A stretch of 41,104 nt of DNA, taken from positions 1 to 41,104 of the forward strand of contig JAGFND010000006.1 of assembly GCA_021409285.1 (NCBI GenBank). Direction: 5' to 3'. This stretch comes from Candidatus Methanoperedens sp. GTDB lineage: Archaea > Halobacteriota > Methanosarcinia > Methanosarcinales > Methanoperedenaceae. How positions within the stretch are numbered: position 1 is the first letter of the stretch; each line of letters opens with the position of its first letter. Position numbers and translations under genes: made by a program. This document shows positions 23,304-33,020 of the stretch, piece after piece. The notes beneath the pieces were generated by a model. The model saw only the letters and a list, made by a program, of their open reading frames with translations. It was not told the DNA's origin and did no database searches.

Positions 23304-26300
23304 CTAAGGTTTAGTTCTCAAATTCTTGATATGTTCCTGTATTGTTTGTCCAATATCACTCAGTTTACTTTTTACTTGATCAAGGCTGAGTTTATTTTTT
23401 GCAGTCAGGAAATATATCGCAATGATCCCAAATATTGTTAATAATCCGCCTATGAGCAGGTAATTCACAGGGTCTTTCAGGACTTCTATCATTCCTTTCT
23501 GACCCAGAATTTCAACTGAATAATTCCCTGGTTCGTTATCTTTCACATCAGAATAAAGCCTGCTTCCCTTTCTCGTGAAATTTATCTCCTTTATCTCACC
23601 CGGTGCAAGTGTGACGGATCTGTTGTCTACCAGGGTTTCATTGATGAGCAGATTGACAGGCAGTGTGTCTGCTTTTGTTCCAACATTCGTGATGTTTGAT
23701 CTGATTACAATATTGCTTCCTGTGGATGCAACTGCTGGCGTGACATTTATGTCAAGTGCTTTGAATTCTGAGAACAGTTCTTTAATTTCGATTTCTCTTG
23801 CAGCCGTGATATATTTGGTTTTTGACGCTGATATCGTATGAATGCCGGTTGAGTTAAGTGTATAATTCAGAGTACCATTGTTACCACTCTCTCCAATACT
23901 TGAATTATCGAAATTCACACTCGCTGCACTCATCGGTGTGCCATTATATGTGACCTGTATGGTTATTGTATCCAGGCGATTGGCCATGGCCGGAGCATCT
24001 ATGGATAGCCTGTAATCAATATACATCGCTACATCAATACTCTTTGTGGCTTTTTCAAAACCAACTTTTGTCGCTGTAATATTGTATATACCTTTGAATG
24101 TTTTTGGAATAGCATATACGATCTCTCCATTGCTATTTGTTTCACCGATATCCGAGGAGTCAAAAGTGACAGAAGCATTTTCTACATTATTGCCGCCAGC
24201 TGTAATCTTTATTGTTGCATTATCACCGGCGTTAGCATTTGCAGGGGCCTCAATTGCCAATTGGTTCGCGATCATTTCCTGAGTTACTTCAACAAATGGA
24301 TAGAATCTAAGGTCATTTGAATCTGCGGTTCTGAACTTGATGTTTCCCATAACATCACTTACCTGGTTAGGGGAGAGATCTATGGTATTGTCATTCTCCA
24401 TCTGGATTCCGTTGCTTGTTCCTGTAACTTTCATCGCCCCATACAGGTTTCCGCTCTTAACCTCTGTATATATTTCAGATATCTGGAATACACCTTTTAT
24501 GAAGGCGGCATTGACTTCGCGTCCTCTGAATACGCTTTCGAAGTGAACAACCAGGATCGGAAGATCGCTGACTCTGCCGACTTTTTTGGTATATATATAT
24601 TCCTGGCCGCTGGCAAGTACACTCTGATCTATCTCACTGCCGTCCTTGAGCAGGGTAACCCATATCTGGCCTGATCCGGCTCCAATATCCACGGCTGTCA
24701 TTTTCAGTACATAACCTTCTTTTAATGTGAGTGTACCGCCTTCTGTGATCGTGCTCTTATCGTCATTATCTATGAGCACTTTATGGAGCTGGCTGCTGCC
24801 GATAGTACTTATTGTTCTATAATTGGAAGGCTTGCTGCCTGATGAATAACCTGCAAAATATTTCTCAGCCATGAAGCCCATTACTTGATATGATCCCAAC
24901 GAATCATGCGTAAAATTTACTTCCTGGGCGGTTGTGGAATATTTCAACTTGCCGTCCTCGAGAGATGTTCCACTCACATCTCCTCCGTCTATCCAGAGGG
25001 TCTCATTTCCGATATCATCATCGATATTATAATAGAATCCGATGCTGGTGCCTCCGACATCAAGACCGAAATTCATCGGGGTCCATTGGCTGGTCTCATT
25101 ATAGATAGTTCCTCTTACATCGAATGAGCCTGTATTTTCAACGGTCAGGCCAAAGCGCAAAACGCTGCTATTATCTGCAACTTTTATCTTCAGATTTCCC
25201 ATAAGGTCAATTGTGTTGCCTGCAGAAAGGTCTAATGAATCATCATTTTCCATTCTTATCTCATCTGAGCCAACCTTCGTTATTTTCATTATACCATATT
25301 TATCACTGCTTTTTACCTGGTTGTATGATTCTGATATCTGGAATATCCCTTTTATGAAGGCTGCATTTACTTCCCTGCCCCTGAATACTGTATCAAAATG
25401 AACAGCAATTATGGGCAGGTCACTGACCGCCCCTACTTTTTTAGTATAGATGTAAGTATCATTAATGCCGATAACATCCGAATCTACCTCGTTTCCATCT
25501 TTTAGCAGAGTGACCCATATCTGGCCTGAACCGGCACCAATATCCACAGCTGTCATCTTGAGGACATAGCCATCTTTCAATGTGAGTGTCCCGCCTTCTG
25601 TGATTGTGCGCTTGTCTTTATCATCAAAGAGAACTTGATGGAGCTGGCTGCTGCCGATAGTACTTATTACCTTCCCGCCTGAAGGGATGCTGTTTGATGT
25701 ATAGCCGGCGAAATATTTGTCAGCCATGAAGCCAATAACATTATACTTTCCAAAATCAGAATATTCAAAGCTTGCCTCAAATGGAGATGTGCTATAGATC
25801 ATTTCACTTCTTGCTATATTCCTGTCAATATTCATTATCGTCAGGTTTTCAGTGCCAAGATTGTCATTGATATTATAATAGAAGCCAGAAAAACTGTATG
25901 GGTTCCATGTATAGGTTCTGCTCATCCCTTTATTCTCATCCCAGATGCGGTTGCCTGAGGCAAAGTTCCTTGGCCGGACTGTCCAGTTCCAGTATTCTGT
26001 ATCATTAAGATTGTTAGAGATGTTTATAGCAGTAACACTGATGTTATATGTTCCCTGACTTGCAGTGCTGTTTGTATAGACCGAATAAGTACCTGAAGGA
26101 ACTGAACCATTGGCAAATACTTCAACTCCATCGATTTTCCAGGTAATGTTTGTTGTCTGGTCAGCTTTTGCTTTAAAAGTAGCAGGTTTGCCGACTGGAC
26201 TGTCGAAATTGATCGTATCAGGATCCCTGGTTATGGATGGTTTTGGAGGGACACCAAGGACCACTGTGGAAAAGCTGATGACGTTGCCATAAACAATAGA

Positions 26301-27512
26301 TGTGTCTCTATTTGTGGTCACATCATTCCATGATCCGTTAAAATGATACAGACGCACATCATTTCCAGAATATTCAGATGGTAATGATGAATATGATAAT
26401 CCTATTGTAATATTGCCGATAGAAGTAGCTGTAGTATCTATTCGATAAAATGATCCAATTTCCGTGAATAATGGATGCGCTGCTGGAGAACTCACTGTGG
26501 TAACTGTAGTATTCCCGCTTACTGTCACGTTAGAAAAGCTGATCGTTAGATTAGAGAATGTTAATGTTACCTGTCCGGTTGGTGTGTTCGGTGAAGTCGA
26601 ATTAGTTAAGTTTACCCATGTGGAATTTATGTTCCCTGATGTGTCAACGGTATGTGTTGAAATGGTATGACTTGTTCCCGGACTTAATCCGGTGGCATTA
26701 TAAACCGATTCGTTGACCATCGGTTTTAAAACACCGTCTAAATATACGTTCACTCCTGCAAAATCAGTATTGTTTGGTTTGGTCCATGTCCAGGTTATCC
26801 ATGATGTTCCATTTTCCGCCATTGACAAATTTGTAATGCTGTCAGGCGCCGATTGGTCGGGTGCATTTGTCACATTCCATGTCCAGGTTGTAGAAGATGA
26901 ACCATTGGTATTAGAAGCTGTTGCTGTAACTGTATATTGTCCTACTGCAGTAGCGTTACCTGTAAATTCCGCCTTAGTTCCTACGGGCACTGATTCATTA
27001 GTTTGAACTACCGAACCTATTGTCCAGTTTACATTGGATACTTGATCAACTGTAACATTGAATGCCTGCATATTTCCAACAATCGTGTATACTGGTGATG
27101 CTGGATTGGATGATGTAATGTTTGGAGCTATTGCAGTCACCTCAAAAGAACTGCCTTGAACAGGACCCACAATGTAAGTTCCATTCTTAGCAGTAAAATT
27201 ATAATAATGGGTACCAATGGACAATGGTATTGCTGTATAAACATAGATTTTACCATCACTTGTATTAACATCAGAAGAAGTCTTTTCCGTCATAGGATAA
27301 TCAATACCATCAAGTTTAATTCTTACATAATCGGCAATAGTTCCATTAGCAGTATCCATAAAAGTAACATTAAAGTTGAAATTTGTTGTGGTATCGCCGG
27401 ATCTTGGAAAAACCTCTCCATTACTCAAATCAGGTGCAGCCATCGCTATCATTGCCAGGTTCAACACCAGTCCAATAAAAAGTATTCCTTTAATATACCT
27501 CTTTAATACCAT
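23304..27512 (-). CDS. S-layer protein with two tandem Methanosarcina-type S-layer domains
   Basis: The 1402-aa protein has a signal peptide (about 1-26) and N-terminal Ig/fibronectin-like modules (about 27-510, including an FN3-like SITNLSMAENGTSWITWTW). Two tandem S-layer domains of the DUF1608 type follow (about 515-790 and 794-1073), each with GFMAxKYFAGY, TISTIGSSQLH, TLKxGYVLKMTAVDIGAGSGQIWVTLLKDG and VFRGREVNAAFIKG. More Ig-like and CARDB-like modules (about 1080-1330) precede one membrane helix (about 1346-1367) and a 35-aa basic tail. This matches Methanosarcina S-layer proteins, which form the porous outer lattice. The additional N-terminal modules and cytoplasmic tail make it larger than the typical member. 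The RBS is GAGGGGA, with a TATA box about 115 bp upstream. Confidence 0.93.
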   Translation of the reverse strand: MVLKRYIKGILFIGLVLNLAMIAMAAPDLSNGEVFPRSGDTTTNFNFNVTFMDTANGTIADYVRIKLDGIDYPMTEKTSSDVNTSDGKIYVYTAIPLSIGTHYYNFTAKNGTYIVGPVQGSSFEVTAIAPNITSSNPASPVYTIVGNMQAFNVTVDQVSNVNWTIGSVVQTNESVPVGTKAEFTGNATAVGQYTVTATASNTNGSSSTTWTWNVTNAPDQSAPDSITNLSMAENGTSWITWTWTKPNNTDFAGVNVYLDGVLKPMVNESVYNATGLSPGTSHTISTHTVDTSGNINSTWVNLTNSTSPNTPTGQVTLTFSNLTISFSNVTVSGNTTVTTVSSPAAHPLFTEIGSFYRIDTTATSIGNITIGLSYSSLPSEYSGNDVRLYHFNGSWNDVTTNRDTSIVYGNVISFSTVVLGVPPKPSITRDPDTINFDSPVGKPATFKAKADQTTNITWKIDGVEVFANGSVPSGTYSVYTNSTASQGTYNISVTAINISNNLNDTEYWNWTVRPRNFASGNRIWDENKGMSRTYTWNPYSFSGFYYNINDNLGTENLTIMNIDRNIARSEMIYSTSPFEASFEYSDFGKYNVIGFMADKYFAGYTSNSIPSGGKVISTIGSSQLHQVLFDDKDKRTITEGGTLTLKDGYVLKMTAVDIGAGSGQIWVTLLKDGNEVDSDVIGINDTYIYTKKVGAVSDLPIIAVHFDTVFRGREVNAAFIKGIFQISESYNQVKSSDKYGIMKITKVGSDEIRMENDDSLDLSAGNTIDLMGNLKIKVADNSSVLRFGLTVENTGSFDVRGTIYNETSQWTPMNFGLDVGGTSIGFYYNIDDDIGNETLWIDGGDVSGTSLEDGKLKYSTTAQEVNFTHDSLGSYQVMGFMAEKYFAGYSSGSKPSNYRTISTIGSSQLHKVLIDNDDKSTITEGGTLTLKEGYVLKMTAVDIGAGSGQIWVTLLKDGSEIDQSVLASGQEYIYTKKVGRVSDLPILVVHFESVFRGREVNAAFIKGVFQISEIYTEVKSGNLYGAMKVTGTSNGIQMENDNTIDLSPNQVSDVMGNIKFRTADSNDLRFYPFVEVTQEMIANQLAIEAPANANAGDNATIKITAGGNNVENASVTFDSSDIGETNSNGEIVYAIPKTFKGIYNITATKVGFEKATKSIDVAMYIDYRLSIDAPAMANRLDTITIQVTYNGTPMSAASVNFDNSSIGESGNNGTLNYTLNSTGIHTISASKTKYITAAREIEIKELFSEFKALDINVTPAVASTGSNIVIRSNITNVGTKADTLPVNLLINETLVDNRSVTLAPGEIKEINFTRKGSRLYSDVKDNEPGNYSVEILGQKGMIEVLKDPVNYLLIGGLLTIFGIIAIYFLTAKNKLSLDQVKSKLSDIGQTIQEHIKNLRTKP
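24300..25965 (-). repeat. Tandem S-layer domain duplication at DNA level
   Basis: The two S-layer domains encode near-identical blocks. For example, a 30-bp stretch is identical at 24784-24813 and 25637-25666, 853 bp apart, within longer similar segments. This indicates a duplication kept similar by constraint or gene conversion. Confidence 0.7.
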
Positions 27513-29229: not shown

Positions 29230-29364
29230 CTATTCTTTCGGGAACTCATGTCCGCAGTTAGGGCATAATATCATATGGCATTTCATAAAACGAGGGCACA
29301 TTCTACATCCCTCGTTCTTTTCTTTATTGAATTTTGCTCCGCAAAGAGGGCATTGTGTTTTCAT
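29230..29364 (-). CDS. Cys-rich zinc-ribbon miniprotein downstream of feoB (44 aa)
   Basis: The 44-aa product starts MKTQCPLCGAKFNK and ends CPNCGHEFPKE. Its seven Cys are arranged as CPLC, CRMC, a single C and CPNC, with additional His residues, so it can bind one or two metal sites. Its ATG overlaps the feoB stop by 4 bp (ATGA), showing translational coupling. In bacteria, small FeoC proteins with Cys residues are coupled to FeoB. This protein is not recognisably FeoC, but position and composition suggest a similar accessory role. This is inference. Confidence 0.75.
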   Translation of the reverse strand: MKTQCPLCGAKFNKEKNEGCRMCPRFMKCHMILCPNCGHEFPKE

Positions 29365-31364
29365 AATAGATGGAAGTATCCTATTATATGAGAAGCCAGT
29401 CCCCCGATAATTATCGCCAGCGTGATCGTAAATGCCATTATCCCTCCTGCCCGTCCCCAGCCAAGCTCGCGCCCAAGGACTGCTATCGTAGCCACACACG
29501 GGATATAGATCGTATTAACAAGAGCGTAGACGAAAAGCTGGGCAGGGCTCATGAAAAGAAGCAGGTTTCTTGCACCGCCACCGTATTGGACGATAGCAAG
29601 AGTAACAAGCAGCTGCAATGCGAGTTCCTTACGAAGGATCGCAAATATCAGGGTAAGACCTGCAACTGCAGGAAGACCAAGCCATCCTTCAACAACAGGC
29701 GATAAAGGTGCTGCGAGTTTCCAGAGATATCCTGTCTCATAAAGTCCGCCAAGCACCAGTGAACCAACAACCACTATTGGAAAAGCAACAAAAATGAAAT
29801 CCTTGAATCTTTGCCATGTTTTCTTGAATATATTTGACAGGATGGGTGCCCTGAACGGGAACATCTCCATGACTAGACCTGTTGAGCTTCCGGGCATGAC
29901 CCTGTTAAGCCCGATACCCACAAGGAACACAAGAGCAAGTACAATAATATAGATAGCGATAGCAGGTTTCCATCCAACGAACAATGAGACTGCTCCGAGA
30001 ATTACGGCAGTTCTTGCGCTGCATGGGATAAGTGTGATAAGAGTGCTTGCTATAACTCTCTCACGCATAGTAGTGAGCACTCGTGTCCCAATGATAGCTG
30101 GAACATTGCATCCCGCCCCGGCTACAAGTGGAATTATTGCGCGCCCGTGAAGACCGAATTTATGCATCAGCCTGTCAGTGAGGAACGCTACAGAGTTCAG
30201 ATATCCTGTATCTTCAAGAAAAGCAAGCAGAAAATAGAACGTCAGTACATAAGGGATCCCAACAGCAAGAGCAGCAAGTATCCCTGCGTCAAAGCCCCAA
30301 ACAAAAGTTTTCCCCAGATGCCCGCTGCCAAAAATAGAGAATACCGCACTATCGATAACGGGAGAGACAAATGTTGCCCAGAGATCACTGAAAGCGGATG
30401 AAAGAAAATTACCGCCAAAAAAAAGAAAAGCAAAAATAACTCCAATAATTATTATTAGAAGTGGTATTCCGGTAAATGGGGACGTAGTATATGCCCATAT
30501 TTTGTCAGAACCGATGGATTTCACGTCGCTCTGTACCTGTGAGGCTATGGAACCAGCCAGGCCGTGCCTTTCTCTGGAAATCCTGAGCTGCGTCTTCTCA
30601 CCATGATTCCTTTCTATCTCAGCACTTATTTTTTTCACATCATCAAGGATTAAATTTCCATTAACATGCTTTCTCACAAGTTCTATGAATTCCTGATCAT
30701 CTTCAAGAAGAAGTATTGCCAGTGCTCTATTATTAATGCCAAAATCATAAGGGACAAGCACGTCACGCAATTTTTGTATGCTCGTCTCGATATCGCATCC
30801 GTAGCGTACCTCGTATTTGATCTCAGCTTTTTTCCGTGCAACATTTACTGCTTCCTGTATCAGTTCATCAAGACCTCTACCGGTTGTGGCAATAGTTTTC
30901 ACTACAGGAACACCAAGGAGCGCGGATAATTCCTTCGTATTGATCATAATATTTCTTTTTTCAGCCTCATCGATAAGGTTCAATGCGATAACAATGGGAA
31001 TGCCAAGGTCAATGAACTGAAGCGTCATGAAAAGATTCCTGGCAAGGTTCGTGGCATCAAGGATCATTATCGCAGCATCTGGATCACTGTCAAGAACTCC
31101 TCTGCGGGCAACCCACTGGTCTTCAGAAACAGCCCCAAGAGCATAGCTTCCGGGTAGATCAATGATACCTATCCTCAGATCTTTAAAATTTGTTGCTGCA
31201 ATATTTAGTTCAACTGTTTTTCCTGGATAATTAGCTGTCACGACACCCATTCCGGTCAGCCGGTTAAATATGCTGGATTTTCCTACATTTGGATTTCCGG
31301 CAAGCACAAAAGTGAGATCGGTTTTTCCTTTGAGGTTCTTGAGTGCTCCGTGGCATGAAAGCAT
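29361..31364 (-). CDS. feoB: Ferrous iron transport protein B (GTPase-permease)
   Basis: The 667-aa protein has an N-terminal G-protein domain: G1 GNPNVGKSS (about residues 23-31), G2 NYPGKTVE, G3 DLPGSY, and G4 NLID. The multispan membrane permease follows, with the conserved GxGCNVPAI region and C-terminal core. It imports Fe2+ across the cytoplasmic membrane. The ATG at 31364 has GGTGA 4 nt upstream; an adjacent ATG at 31367 is the alternative. It overlaps the dtxR stop by 1 bp and the miniprotein by 4 bp. Confidence 0.96.
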   Translation of the reverse strand: MLSCHGALKNLKGKTDLTFVLAGNPNVGKSSIFNRLTGMGVVTANYPGKTVELNIAATNFKDLRIGIIDLPGSYALGAVSEDQWVARRGVLDSDPDAAIMILDATNLARNLFMTLQFIDLGIPIVIALNLIDEAEKRNIMINTKELSALLGVPVVKTIATTGRGLDELIQEAVNVARKKAEIKYEVRYGCDIETSIQKLRDVLVPYDFGINNRALAILLLEDDQEFIELVRKHVNGNLILDDVKKISAEIERNHGEKTQLRISRERHGLAGSIASQVQSDVKSIGSDKIWAYTTSPFTGIPLLIIIIGVIFAFLFFGGNFLSSAFSDLWATFVSPVIDSAVFSIFGSGHLGKTFVWGFDAGILAALAVGIPYVLTFYFLLAFLEDTGYLNSVAFLTDRLMHKFGLHGRAIIPLVAGAGCNVPAIIGTRVLTTMRERVIASTLITLIPCSARTAVILGAVSLFVGWKPAIAIYIIVLALVFLVGIGLNRVMPGSSTGLVMEMFPFRAPILSNIFKKTWQRFKDFIFVAFPIVVVGSLVLGGLYETGYLWKLAAPLSPVVEGWLGLPAVAGLTLIFAILRKELALQLLVTLAIVQYGGGARNLLLFMSPAQLFVYALVNTIYIPCVATIAVLGRELGWGRAGGIMAFTITLAIIIGGLASHIIGYFHLL

Positions 31365-32014
31365 CATTTCACCTTGATCTTTGATGCAACCTCTCTTCCA
31401 AGTGCATAACGTGAGCCTGAAACGCATACAATTAGAGGGCCGCCAAAAGGAGCCACTTCCTCAACCCTGACGCAAACATCAGGCATCAATCCAAGGGTAG
31501 CAAGATATTGAAGCATTTTAGGGTCTTCTTCAAACACGCTAACTATGATCCCTTTTTGGGCTGCTTTTAATTCGGAGAGCGGTCTTACTTTCTCGGTGAT
31601 GAGCACTCCATCCTTATCAGGGATGGGATGACCATGAGGGCAGGTCTTTGGGTTCCCAAGACTTTCAGAAATACGTTCCTCCATTTCAGGGCTTATCGCA
31701 TGCTCAAGCCTGCAGGCCTCTTCATGCACCTCGTCCCATTTGAAGCCCAGAATATCAGTGAGCAGCCTCTCAGACAACCTGTGCCTCCGGATGACCTTTT
31801 TGGCAATTGTTTTTCCATGTTCGGTCAGACATATTCCTTTTTCAGAGTGGCTTATAAGGTCTTTGCCAGCGAGTTTTCGTATCATCTCGGAAACTGATGG
31901 CGGAGATAGTTTCAGATGCTCAGCAAGACGCGAAGTGCTGACAGGATGTTTTTCCTGCTGGAGTTTATATATCGATTCAAGGTATTCTTCGATCCTTGGG
32001 GTATCAGCTTCCAT
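31364..32014 (-). CDS. DtxR-family metal-dependent repressor with C-terminal FeoA domain
   Basis: The 216-aa protein has a winged HTH (about 1-65: RIEEYLESIYKL, STSRLAEHLKLSPPSVSEMIRKL), a dimerisation domain with metal-binding candidates (about 70-140: HRLSERLLTD, HEEACRLEHAIS, HPIPD) and a C-terminal FeoA/SH3 domain (about 145-216: PLSELKAAQKGIIVSVFEED, LATLGLMPDVCVRV, PFGGPLIVCVSGSRYALG). The family represses iron or manganese uptake when metal is bound. It sits inside the iron operon, and a palindrome fits its operator. The SD GAGGTAA overlaps the FTR1 stop. Confidence 0.95.
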   Translation of the reverse strand: MEADTPRIEEYLESIYKLQQEKHPVSTSRLAEHLKLSPPSVSEMIRKLAGKDLISHSEKGICLTEHGKTIAKKVIRRHRLSERLLTDILGFKWDEVHEEACRLEHAISPEMEERISESLGNPKTCPHGHPIPDKDGVLITEKVRPLSELKAAQKGIIVSVFEEDPKMLQYLATLGLMPDVCVRVEEVAPFGGPLIVCVSGSRYALGREVASKIKVK

Positions 32015-32017
32015 GTT

Positions 32018-32845
32018 TTACCTCTTCCTGTATGAATTGTACAAAAAAATCCCTGTAATTATCCAGTATCCGGAATATGCAATGACCTCTGTCAGTGAGG
32101 GAGCGCCGCTGTAACCGATAAGTGATTTGAGACTGCTTCCTATCAGACCGTTCTCATGAAGCAATGGATATGTTCCATCAGGATTCTGTGGCGGATTCAG
32201 ATCCCACACATGCTCTATTACAGGAGGGATGATGCCGGCTTCATTCAGTTCATGAACCGCTGTAGCTGTCAGGCCTGCGGAAAAAAGTATTAAGAATATA
32301 CTGGTTATCCTGAAGAATCTGCTTATATCCAGCCTGTAAATACCTTTGAACATGATATATGACAGGAATACCACAAGCATGAGCCCGGCTGCAAATCCAA
32401 AGAGGGTGTCAAGGGGTGATTGGATAGTCAGTGGTCCAAGGAATAGGACTGTCTCAACTCCTTCCCTGAAGACAGCCACAAATGAAAGGGCTGCTATTCC
32501 CATAAGCTGTCCTTTTGAAATTAAAATCTCGATCTGTTCCTGCACTTCGCCTCTGATCTCTTTTGAATTCCGCGCCATCCAGAAGATCATATAAGTAAGA
32601 ACAATGGCAGCGGTGAGTGCTGAAATGCCCTCGAACAACTGTTCCGATGTTCCTTTCAGGTCTCCATATACTGTTTTAAAAACAAAAGCAACTGCTATAC
32701 TGCCGATTATCCCCCCGATTATCCCGATATTGATGTAGCGATTCAGGTCTTTGCGTCCTATTCTTGCAACATACGCTGCGATTATTCCTATGATCAGGGC
32801 AGTTTCAAGTGCTTCCCTGAATGTTATTAATAAGCTTGCTAACAT
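32018..32845 (-). CDS. FTR1-family high-affinity iron permease
   Basis: The 275-aa protein has about seven membrane segments and two REXXE iron-binding motifs, REALE (residues 10-14) and REGVE (127-131), the diagnostic feature of FTR1-type Fe3+ permeases. In yeast FTR1 works with a multicopper oxidase; none is visible here. It begins the operon, followed by dtxR (3 bp), feoB and the Cys-rich miniprotein. An unusually strong RBS, GAGGATG, precedes the ATG. Confidence 0.94.
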   Translation of the reverse strand: MLASLLITFREALETALIIGIIAAYVARIGRKDLNRYINIGIIGGIIGSIAVAFVFKTVYGDLKGTSEQLFEGISALTAAIVLTYMIFWMARNSKEIRGEVQEQIEILISKGQLMGIAALSFVAVFREGVETVLFLGPLTIQSPLDTLFGFAAGLMLVVFLSYIMFKGIYRLDISRFFRITSIFLILFSAGLTATAVHELNEAGIIPPVIEHVWDLNPPQNPDGTYPLLHENGLIGSSLKSLIGYSGAPSLTEVIAYSGYWIITGIFLYNSYRKR

Positions 32846-32861
32846 TATTCATCCTCATTTA

Positions 32862-32875
32862 TTAGGCATGCCTAA
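32862..32875. promoter_or_regulatory. Perfect 14-bp palindromic operator (DtxR-type) for the iron operon
   Basis: TTAGGCATGCCTAA is a perfect palindrome 17-30 bp upstream of the FTR1 ATG. It resembles DtxR/IdeR-type boxes (TTAGGNNNNCCTAA half-site spacing). The TATA box at 32895-32900 (minus) would place transcription start inside it, so bound repressor should block initiation. The cognate regulator is likely the DtxR in this operon, by position. Confidence 0.8.
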
Positions 32876-32894
32876 CAACATAGTTTTGTATCCC

Positions 32895-32900
32895 TATAAA
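32895..32900 (-). promoter_or_regulatory. TATA box of the iron operon
   Basis: Minus-strand TTTATA, within the BRE-like context CCTTTATAGGG, lies about 50 bp before the ATG and about 20-30 bp before the palindromic operator. Confidence 0.65.
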
Positions 32901-33020
32901 GGTTTCGAAAACTGATGAAAACGAAGCGATTATAGTAATCAGGCCTTCACGATCTTTACGTCCAAAAAATGCACAAATGTTTAAATACCATCAATTATAT
33001 TTTAATCCCAGAGGGATATT

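Follow-up and report, generated by a model that had tools for sequence, protein, structure and literature searches.

A seven-cysteine, 44-residue protein encoded behind feoB in Candidatus Methanoperedens sp. and its FeoB-linked relatives in archaea and bacteria

The iron operon and its upstream region

The window, which is the whole 41,104-nucleotide stretch of Candidatus Methanoperedens sp. DNA that was analysed, carries a minus-strand gene cluster in which FTR1 and dtxR-feoA are followed by feoB and a gene for a 44-aa protein (Table 1). The DtxR-FeoA fusion matches Fe_dep_repr_C (116.4 bits), FeoA (73.8 bits) and Fe_dep_repress (64.7 bits), all above their cut-offs. FTR1 and dtxR-feoA are separated by 3 nt, and both later junctions are ATGA overlaps. 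The sequence and the N-termini of relatives place the likely feoB start at ATG 31367 (MMLSCHG), as against the listed ORF start at 31427, and from this start feoB overlaps the dtxR-feoA stop. At the other junction, the small-gene ATG (29364-29362) and the feoB stop (29361-29363) partly coincide, and the overlap reported in the initial annotation is thereby confirmed. The same annotation had placed the small gene last in an iron operon. The iron operon stands, since feoB, the DtxR-FeoA fusion and FTR1 lie upstream on the same strand, but the last position is likely rather than proven, as coaBC starts 46 nt downstream of the small gene on this strand. A coaBC gene was matched at just two of the 80 loci of relatives, in one of them on the opposite strand, and was rejected as a member of the unit because this neighbourhood is not conserved.

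Table 1. Positions of the operon genes and associated sequence features in the window
Feature	Position	Strand	Basis
FTR1-family iron permease, first gene of the operon	32018..32845	-	PF03239, 165.8 bits (cut-off 25.3)
DtxR-family repressor fused to FeoA domain	31364..32014	-	Three Pfam matches over cut-off
feoB	29361..31367	-	TIGR00437, 436.9 bits (cut-off 315.65)
44-aa seven-Cys protein (CPLC, CRMC, C, CPNC)	29230..29364	-	Sequence and 60-member family alignment A2
ATGA overlap of small-gene start and feoB stop	29361..29364	-	Sequence
Palindrome TTAGGCATGCCTAA, candidate DtxR operator	32862..32875		16 nt before FTR1; TTAGGN4CCTAA
CTTTATAGG, TATA-box-like	32893..32901	-	Just upstream of the palindrome; similar sequence upstream in relatives

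The palindrome TTAGGN4CCTAA occurs as a single site within the 41 kb of the window. FTR1 precedes dtxR-feoA in 16 Methanoperedens loci, and in 16/16 of these the motif is found 15-40 nt before FTR1, at a chance expectation of about 1.4e-4 per 120 nt. Of 39 Methanosarcinaceae loci, 32 have it too, often with two copies in tandem a short way upstream of feoB; in seven Asgard loci it precedes dtxR-feoA. The motif resembles known DtxR/IdeR boxes and is presumably a DtxR-type operator, while CTTTATAGG may be an archaeal TATA-box. As the operon starts behind a palindrome that is conserved in all sixteen relatives, metal-responsive control of its expression is likely.

A conserved element (GGCAAAAGCCG ... 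TTTCCTCCTATATCCCGTCAACGAT ... CGGCTTTTGCC) with an 11-bp stem, which is absent from the window genome, is located shortly behind the small gene in other genomes (L107:4130-4270, with counterparts in L111, L117, L121, L161, L240, L019, L026 and L027). It lies on the strand of the operon, persists at loci with a decayed small gene, and occurs in exactly one copy per genome in 9/11 Methanoperedens genomes searched, nine of which had been preselected for having the element at the locus. The element has no Rfam match over cut-off and its stem shows no compensatory changes; it may represent a small RNA or a 3′ UTR element belonging to the iron operon. Rfam matched nothing in the window and PADLOC gave no match. 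A 1402-aa ORF (23304-27512, minus strand) shows, on inspection by eye, a signal-like stretch at the N-terminus, repeated segments and a hydrophobic segment at the C-terminus, and has the look of a surface protein of the S-layer type.

The small gene and its association with FeoB subtypes

The 44 codons of the small gene occupy the complement of positions 29233-29364, followed by a stop codon at 29230-29232. The initial annotation had given a 44-aa frame with seven Cys and named no strand; translation of the complement recovers this frame, with its Cys in the order CPLC, CRMC, C and CPNC, and the plus strand over the same positions is interrupted by a stop. The protein shares 59-86% identity with those same-family relatives that align over the full length. 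The mean pN/pS for the gene is 0.19 (171 pairs, 19 sequences), with synonymous sites near saturation, and since the protein is conserved while these sites have nearly saturated, the small gene is a real gene under purifying selection. The shortness of the ORF and its repeated loss within one family would fit a chance or spurious reading frame, but this is practically ruled out by the pN/pS value, by conservation across phyla and by the presence of the gene in 69 of the 185 genomes of the order. All seven Cys are retained in 57/60 members of alignment A2, and the seven-Cys pattern is found in 66/69 carriers of the order. The window protein has both the Cys pattern and the position beside feoB that define this seven-Cys, FeoB-linked family.

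Conservation beside feoB in related genomes, which had been proposed as a check, was found: in all 69 carriers (E 0.001) the small gene is located directly behind feoB or a feoB remnant, and in 58 of them the overlap with feoB is exactly four bases. FeoB was identified upstream at 68 loci by the first search, while L066 carries a C-terminal FeoB remnant; at L061, FeoB is reduced to an N-terminal piece. The 44 Methanosarcinaceae genomes with the small gene include all those among the 185 that have the matching FeoB subtype (42/42), and the two carriers without it have feoB remnants, with the small protein of L066 having lost one conserved Cys. At other FeoB loci of the order, hand-picked from its FeoB list, the small gene is alongside in 0/20. 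The small protein is thus tied to particular FeoB subtypes and not to FeoB generally.

Within the family of the window genome, FeoB is present in 31 of 34 genomes and the small gene in 25, such that 6/31 FeoB-bearing genomes are without it. The gene was lost by deletion with a frame change in G042, a four-residue stub remains in G060, and nothing recognisable follows an intact feoB in G041, G055 and G062; G073, of another genus, likewise has FeoB without the small gene. Furthermore, an in-frame internal deletion in G047 leaves a remnant with four Cys, and the small protein of G059 lacks the first Cys. The missing conservation or frameshifts that the initial annotation had named as evidence against its proposal were hence found in part, in the form of these absences, remnants and one in-frame deletion, with the gene otherwise conserved beside feoB. 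Given the six FeoB-bearing genomes that lack it, the small gene is dispensable, and FeoB works, or survives, without its product.

FeoB proteins of Methanoperedens open with a short SCH(G/S) motif ahead of the G domain (in the window, in the 31367 region), those of Methanosarcinaceae with CC motifs, and most FeoB paralogues without the small gene have no such Cys. The N-terminal motif is retained in genomes that have lost the small gene.

A model of the window protein built from 60 sequences (pLDDT 72.2, pTM 0.45) comprises two hairpins, each with a CPxC turn, with strands predicted at moderate confidence at residues 2-4, 11-13, 31-33 and 40-42 and no helix. Cys 20, 23 and 29 (C-x2-C-x5-C) fall in the irregular middle of the model. 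This arrangement of two CPxC hairpins about a middle with three Cys points to one four-Cys metal site and three further thiolates, in so far as a model of this quality can be relied upon. A tail-bearing Methanosarcina member gave a poor model (pLDDT 61), with a low-confidence helix at residues 44-53. Foldseek returned no match against the PDB at E < 0.001, and a PDB sequence search with the window protein returned generic zinc proteins only, at E 0.053 or worse. A comparison of the A2 profile with the PDB brought up tandem C2H2 zinc fingers at E-values as low as 3e-10, the top chain being a designed zinc-finger protein. This chain matches in five places, and kinship with C2H2 zinc fingers was rejected, the scores being read as shared CPxCG composition.

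Relationship to known families and distribution among archaea and bacteria

As a small protein encoded directly downstream of feoB, the window protein resembles FeoC (PF09012). FeoC is a winged helix, a fold that does not appear in the moderate-confidence window model of four short strands and no helix. It is also absent among the ten Pfam families that match the window protein at E 0.01, and FeoC membership was rejected on this ground, which bears out the initial remark that the protein is not obviously a FeoC homologue. The portion of PMC8749426 drawn upon describes a cluster of four Cys in E. coli FeoC, whereas the seven Cys of the window protein stand in another spacing. The same portion describes the PF12669 proteins as small, Cys-rich and encoded downstream of feoB, sometimes as the C-terminal part of FeoB, with a Cx3-5Cx2-3Cx6-8C motif. 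Membership of PF12669 was rejected, as there is no match at E 0.01 and no hydrophobic segment can be seen by eye in the 44 residues. For the poly-Cys tail of E. coli FeoB, cytosolic thiols have been proposed to receive metal from the membrane part (PMC10647171, in part). That tail is part of FeoB, whereas here the thiols are on a separate protein. At least two Cys in the last 30 residues of FeoB were found in 0/94 FeoBs with the small gene and 0/27 without, and a C-terminal poly-Cys was therefore rejected as a distinguishing trait.

Zinc-ribbon and rubredoxin-like mini-proteins (LysW, HVO_2753 and Zn_ribbon_4) have in common with the window protein two CPxC knuckles, placed by its predicted strands on beta hairpins, as well as weak profile and fold similarity, but the central C-x2-C-x5-C is additional to the window protein. 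Among the best 25 of 35 Pfam families compared, the highest score of the window protein is 20.6 bits against a cut-off of 30.3, and the best NCBIfam score is 16.6 against 53.2, so that no model of either collection covers it at cut-off within this comparison. Other family members reach an E-value of 1.4e-7 with UPF0547 and may pass the cut-off. No description of the seven-Cys, FeoB-linked family was found in the open-licence papers searched, and it is not among the families, FeoC and PF12669, that the part of PMC8749426 drawn upon describes downstream of feoB.

A wider scan with one genome per species yielded 156 relatives, of which 80 were kept, 26 of them from the order of the window genome. 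FeoB adjoins 76/80, and 50 of the 54 from outside the order. The FeoB-side relatives come from Asgard archaea, Thermoproteota and numerous bacterial phyla. Archaeal cases include Baldrarchaeota, Odinarchaeota, Hermodarchaeota, Helarchaeota and Desulfurococcales, while bacterial cases come, among others, from Nitrospirae, Dehalococcoidia, Caldisericota, Omnitrophota, Saganbacteria, WOR-1, Zixibacteria, Firestonebacteria, Lentisphaerae, Deltaproteobacteria, Acidobacteria and a Petroclostridium; most of these genomes are metagenome assemblies, and single cases may therefore be misbinned. The initial proposal of an archaeal counterpart of FeoC thus holds for a small, Cys-rich protein coupled to FeoB, but not for a restriction to archaea. 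A targeted scan found a relative in only 1/118 genomes from the phylum of a Nitrospirae genome, which makes the family patchy, and in 9/74 from that of a Saganbacteria genome. For the phylum of a Baldrarchaeota genome the count was 27/148, part of them belonging to a sister family only, and for the phylum of the window genome 62/392, where the weak matches are at least partly unrelated zinc ribbons.

Relatives away from FeoB are found in the Jordarchaeum-type loci L122/L251, L252, L253 and L217, and in L163 and L181 (beside Fur), L172 and L249 (a 47-bit relative); that of L172 may belong to the sister family. In L163 and L181, from two Halanaerobiales (L163:3034-3708, L181:3527-4201), the small gene is flanked by a Fur-family regulator (128 bits) on one side and, on the other, by a regulator that by eye is Crp/Fnr-like. 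The sister family is found in Asgard archaea (L255:3995-4186, L256:4016-4180, L201-L203, L219-L224, L226, L227, L230 and L231), away from FeoB. Its pattern, CPKCGFxFDxSYxRxFACxGCPS...CGYxKCPKCGHEFP, has the same order of seven Cys, and scores are about 28-43 bits. In both 8-kb loci (L255 and L256), the sister gene is head to head with a gene for a Cys-bearing protein of about 200 aa.

Two versions of the protein accompany two gene orders. With FeoA upstream only, as DtxR-FeoA, the protein ends three to eight residues past the last knuckle (28/28 loci), and with FeoA downstream only it carries a tail of at least 16 residues (79/80 loci; L248 is the exception), a pattern that amounts to few independent events in loci sampled through the small gene itself. 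FeoA is found on both sides at one locus. The FeoA-downstream kind forms one branch (support 100) in a quick LG+G4 FeoB tree with long branches and rows thinned by hand to 82, while the FeoA-upstream kind is interspersed among FeoBs without the small gene. As the latter were drawn only from the order of the window genome, the clean FeoA-downstream branch is partly a sampling effect. The tails have a median net charge of +5. When the most favourable 11-residue segment of each was taken, 18 of 38 distinct tails exceeded shuffles at p 0.1; their amphipathicity is not clearly above that of shuffles. The window protein has no basic C-terminal tail. In acidobacterium L182, the small protein runs on into a FeoA domain (41.3 bits, cut-off 23).

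Proposed role and alternative explanations

Because relatives occupy this position in many archaea and bacteria, the small protein probably assists the iron channel, and we favour, with some confidence, the view that it is a dedicated cytosolic accessory of a FeoB transporter under metal control, comparable to FeoC in role but of unrelated descent. One metal, either zinc or iron, would be bound by the two CPxC knuckles in the manner of zinc ribbons and rubredoxins. The central C-x2-C-x5-C would form an open site of three thiolates, at which Fe(II) leaving the FeoB pore is either taken up or reported on. Together with FeoA, the small protein would then tune the FeoB G domain or pass the iron on, and in the FeoA-downstream subfamily the basic C-terminal tail may hold it at the membrane. 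The predicted open three-thiolate site near an iron channel suggests Fe(II) capture or sensing, and we likewise infer that the protein may have the metal- or redox-sensing role first ascribed to it.

The strict coupling to particular FeoB subtypes would also fit a purely structural zinc ribbon that stabilises FeoB or helps it to assemble but neither transfers nor senses metal. A pair of CPxC knuckles is typical of structural zinc sites, and protection of FeoB from proteolysis has been reported for FeoC (PMC8749426, in part). A zinc ribbon needs four Cys, yet seven are kept in nearly all members of the alignment, and this explanation appears rather doubtful. The frequent adjacency of DtxR-FeoA, and of Fur in the two Halanaerobiales, could instead point to a zinc-ribbon co-regulator that partners the DtxR-FeoA regulator and acts on transcription, not on the transporter. 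This is unlikely, as Methanosarcina-type loci have FeoA downstream without a DtxR domain, the fusion partner in L182 is FeoA, and the reading-frame overlap is with feoB. It is similarly improbable that Mn(II) or some other metal, and not Fe(II), is the cargo of the system, with the small protein as its accessory: the best NCBIfam match of DtxR-FeoA is the MntR model NF047407, far under cut-off (164.4 vs 350 bits), but FTR1 heads the operon and FeoB exceeds its equivalog cut-off.

Beyond the FeoB accessory role favoured here, we tentatively raise the possibility that the family constitutes an unnamed, widespread class of FeoB accessories, common to Asgard archaea, methanogens, anaerobic methane oxidisers and many bacteria. 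Its members would be cytosolic iron acceptors in which a fixed metal site is paired with an open three-thiolate site. They would collect Fe(II) where it exits the FeoB pore and hand it on or report it to FeoA, and the two versions of the family would correspond to the two gene orders and to different lineages of FeoB.

Even in E. coli, the reception of Fe(II) once it has passed FeoB and the tasks of the small FeoB partners are open questions; the roles of FeoA and FeoC are described as unsettled in the parts of PMC8749426 and PMC10647171 drawn upon. A non-homologous partner that recurs with certain FeoB subtypes, and is once fused to FeoA, provides a defined target in culturable Methanosarcina. 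Methanogen genomes without FeoA have been said to call for alternative iron sensing and FeoB regulation (PMC8351635, in part), and the small protein would bear on this gap.
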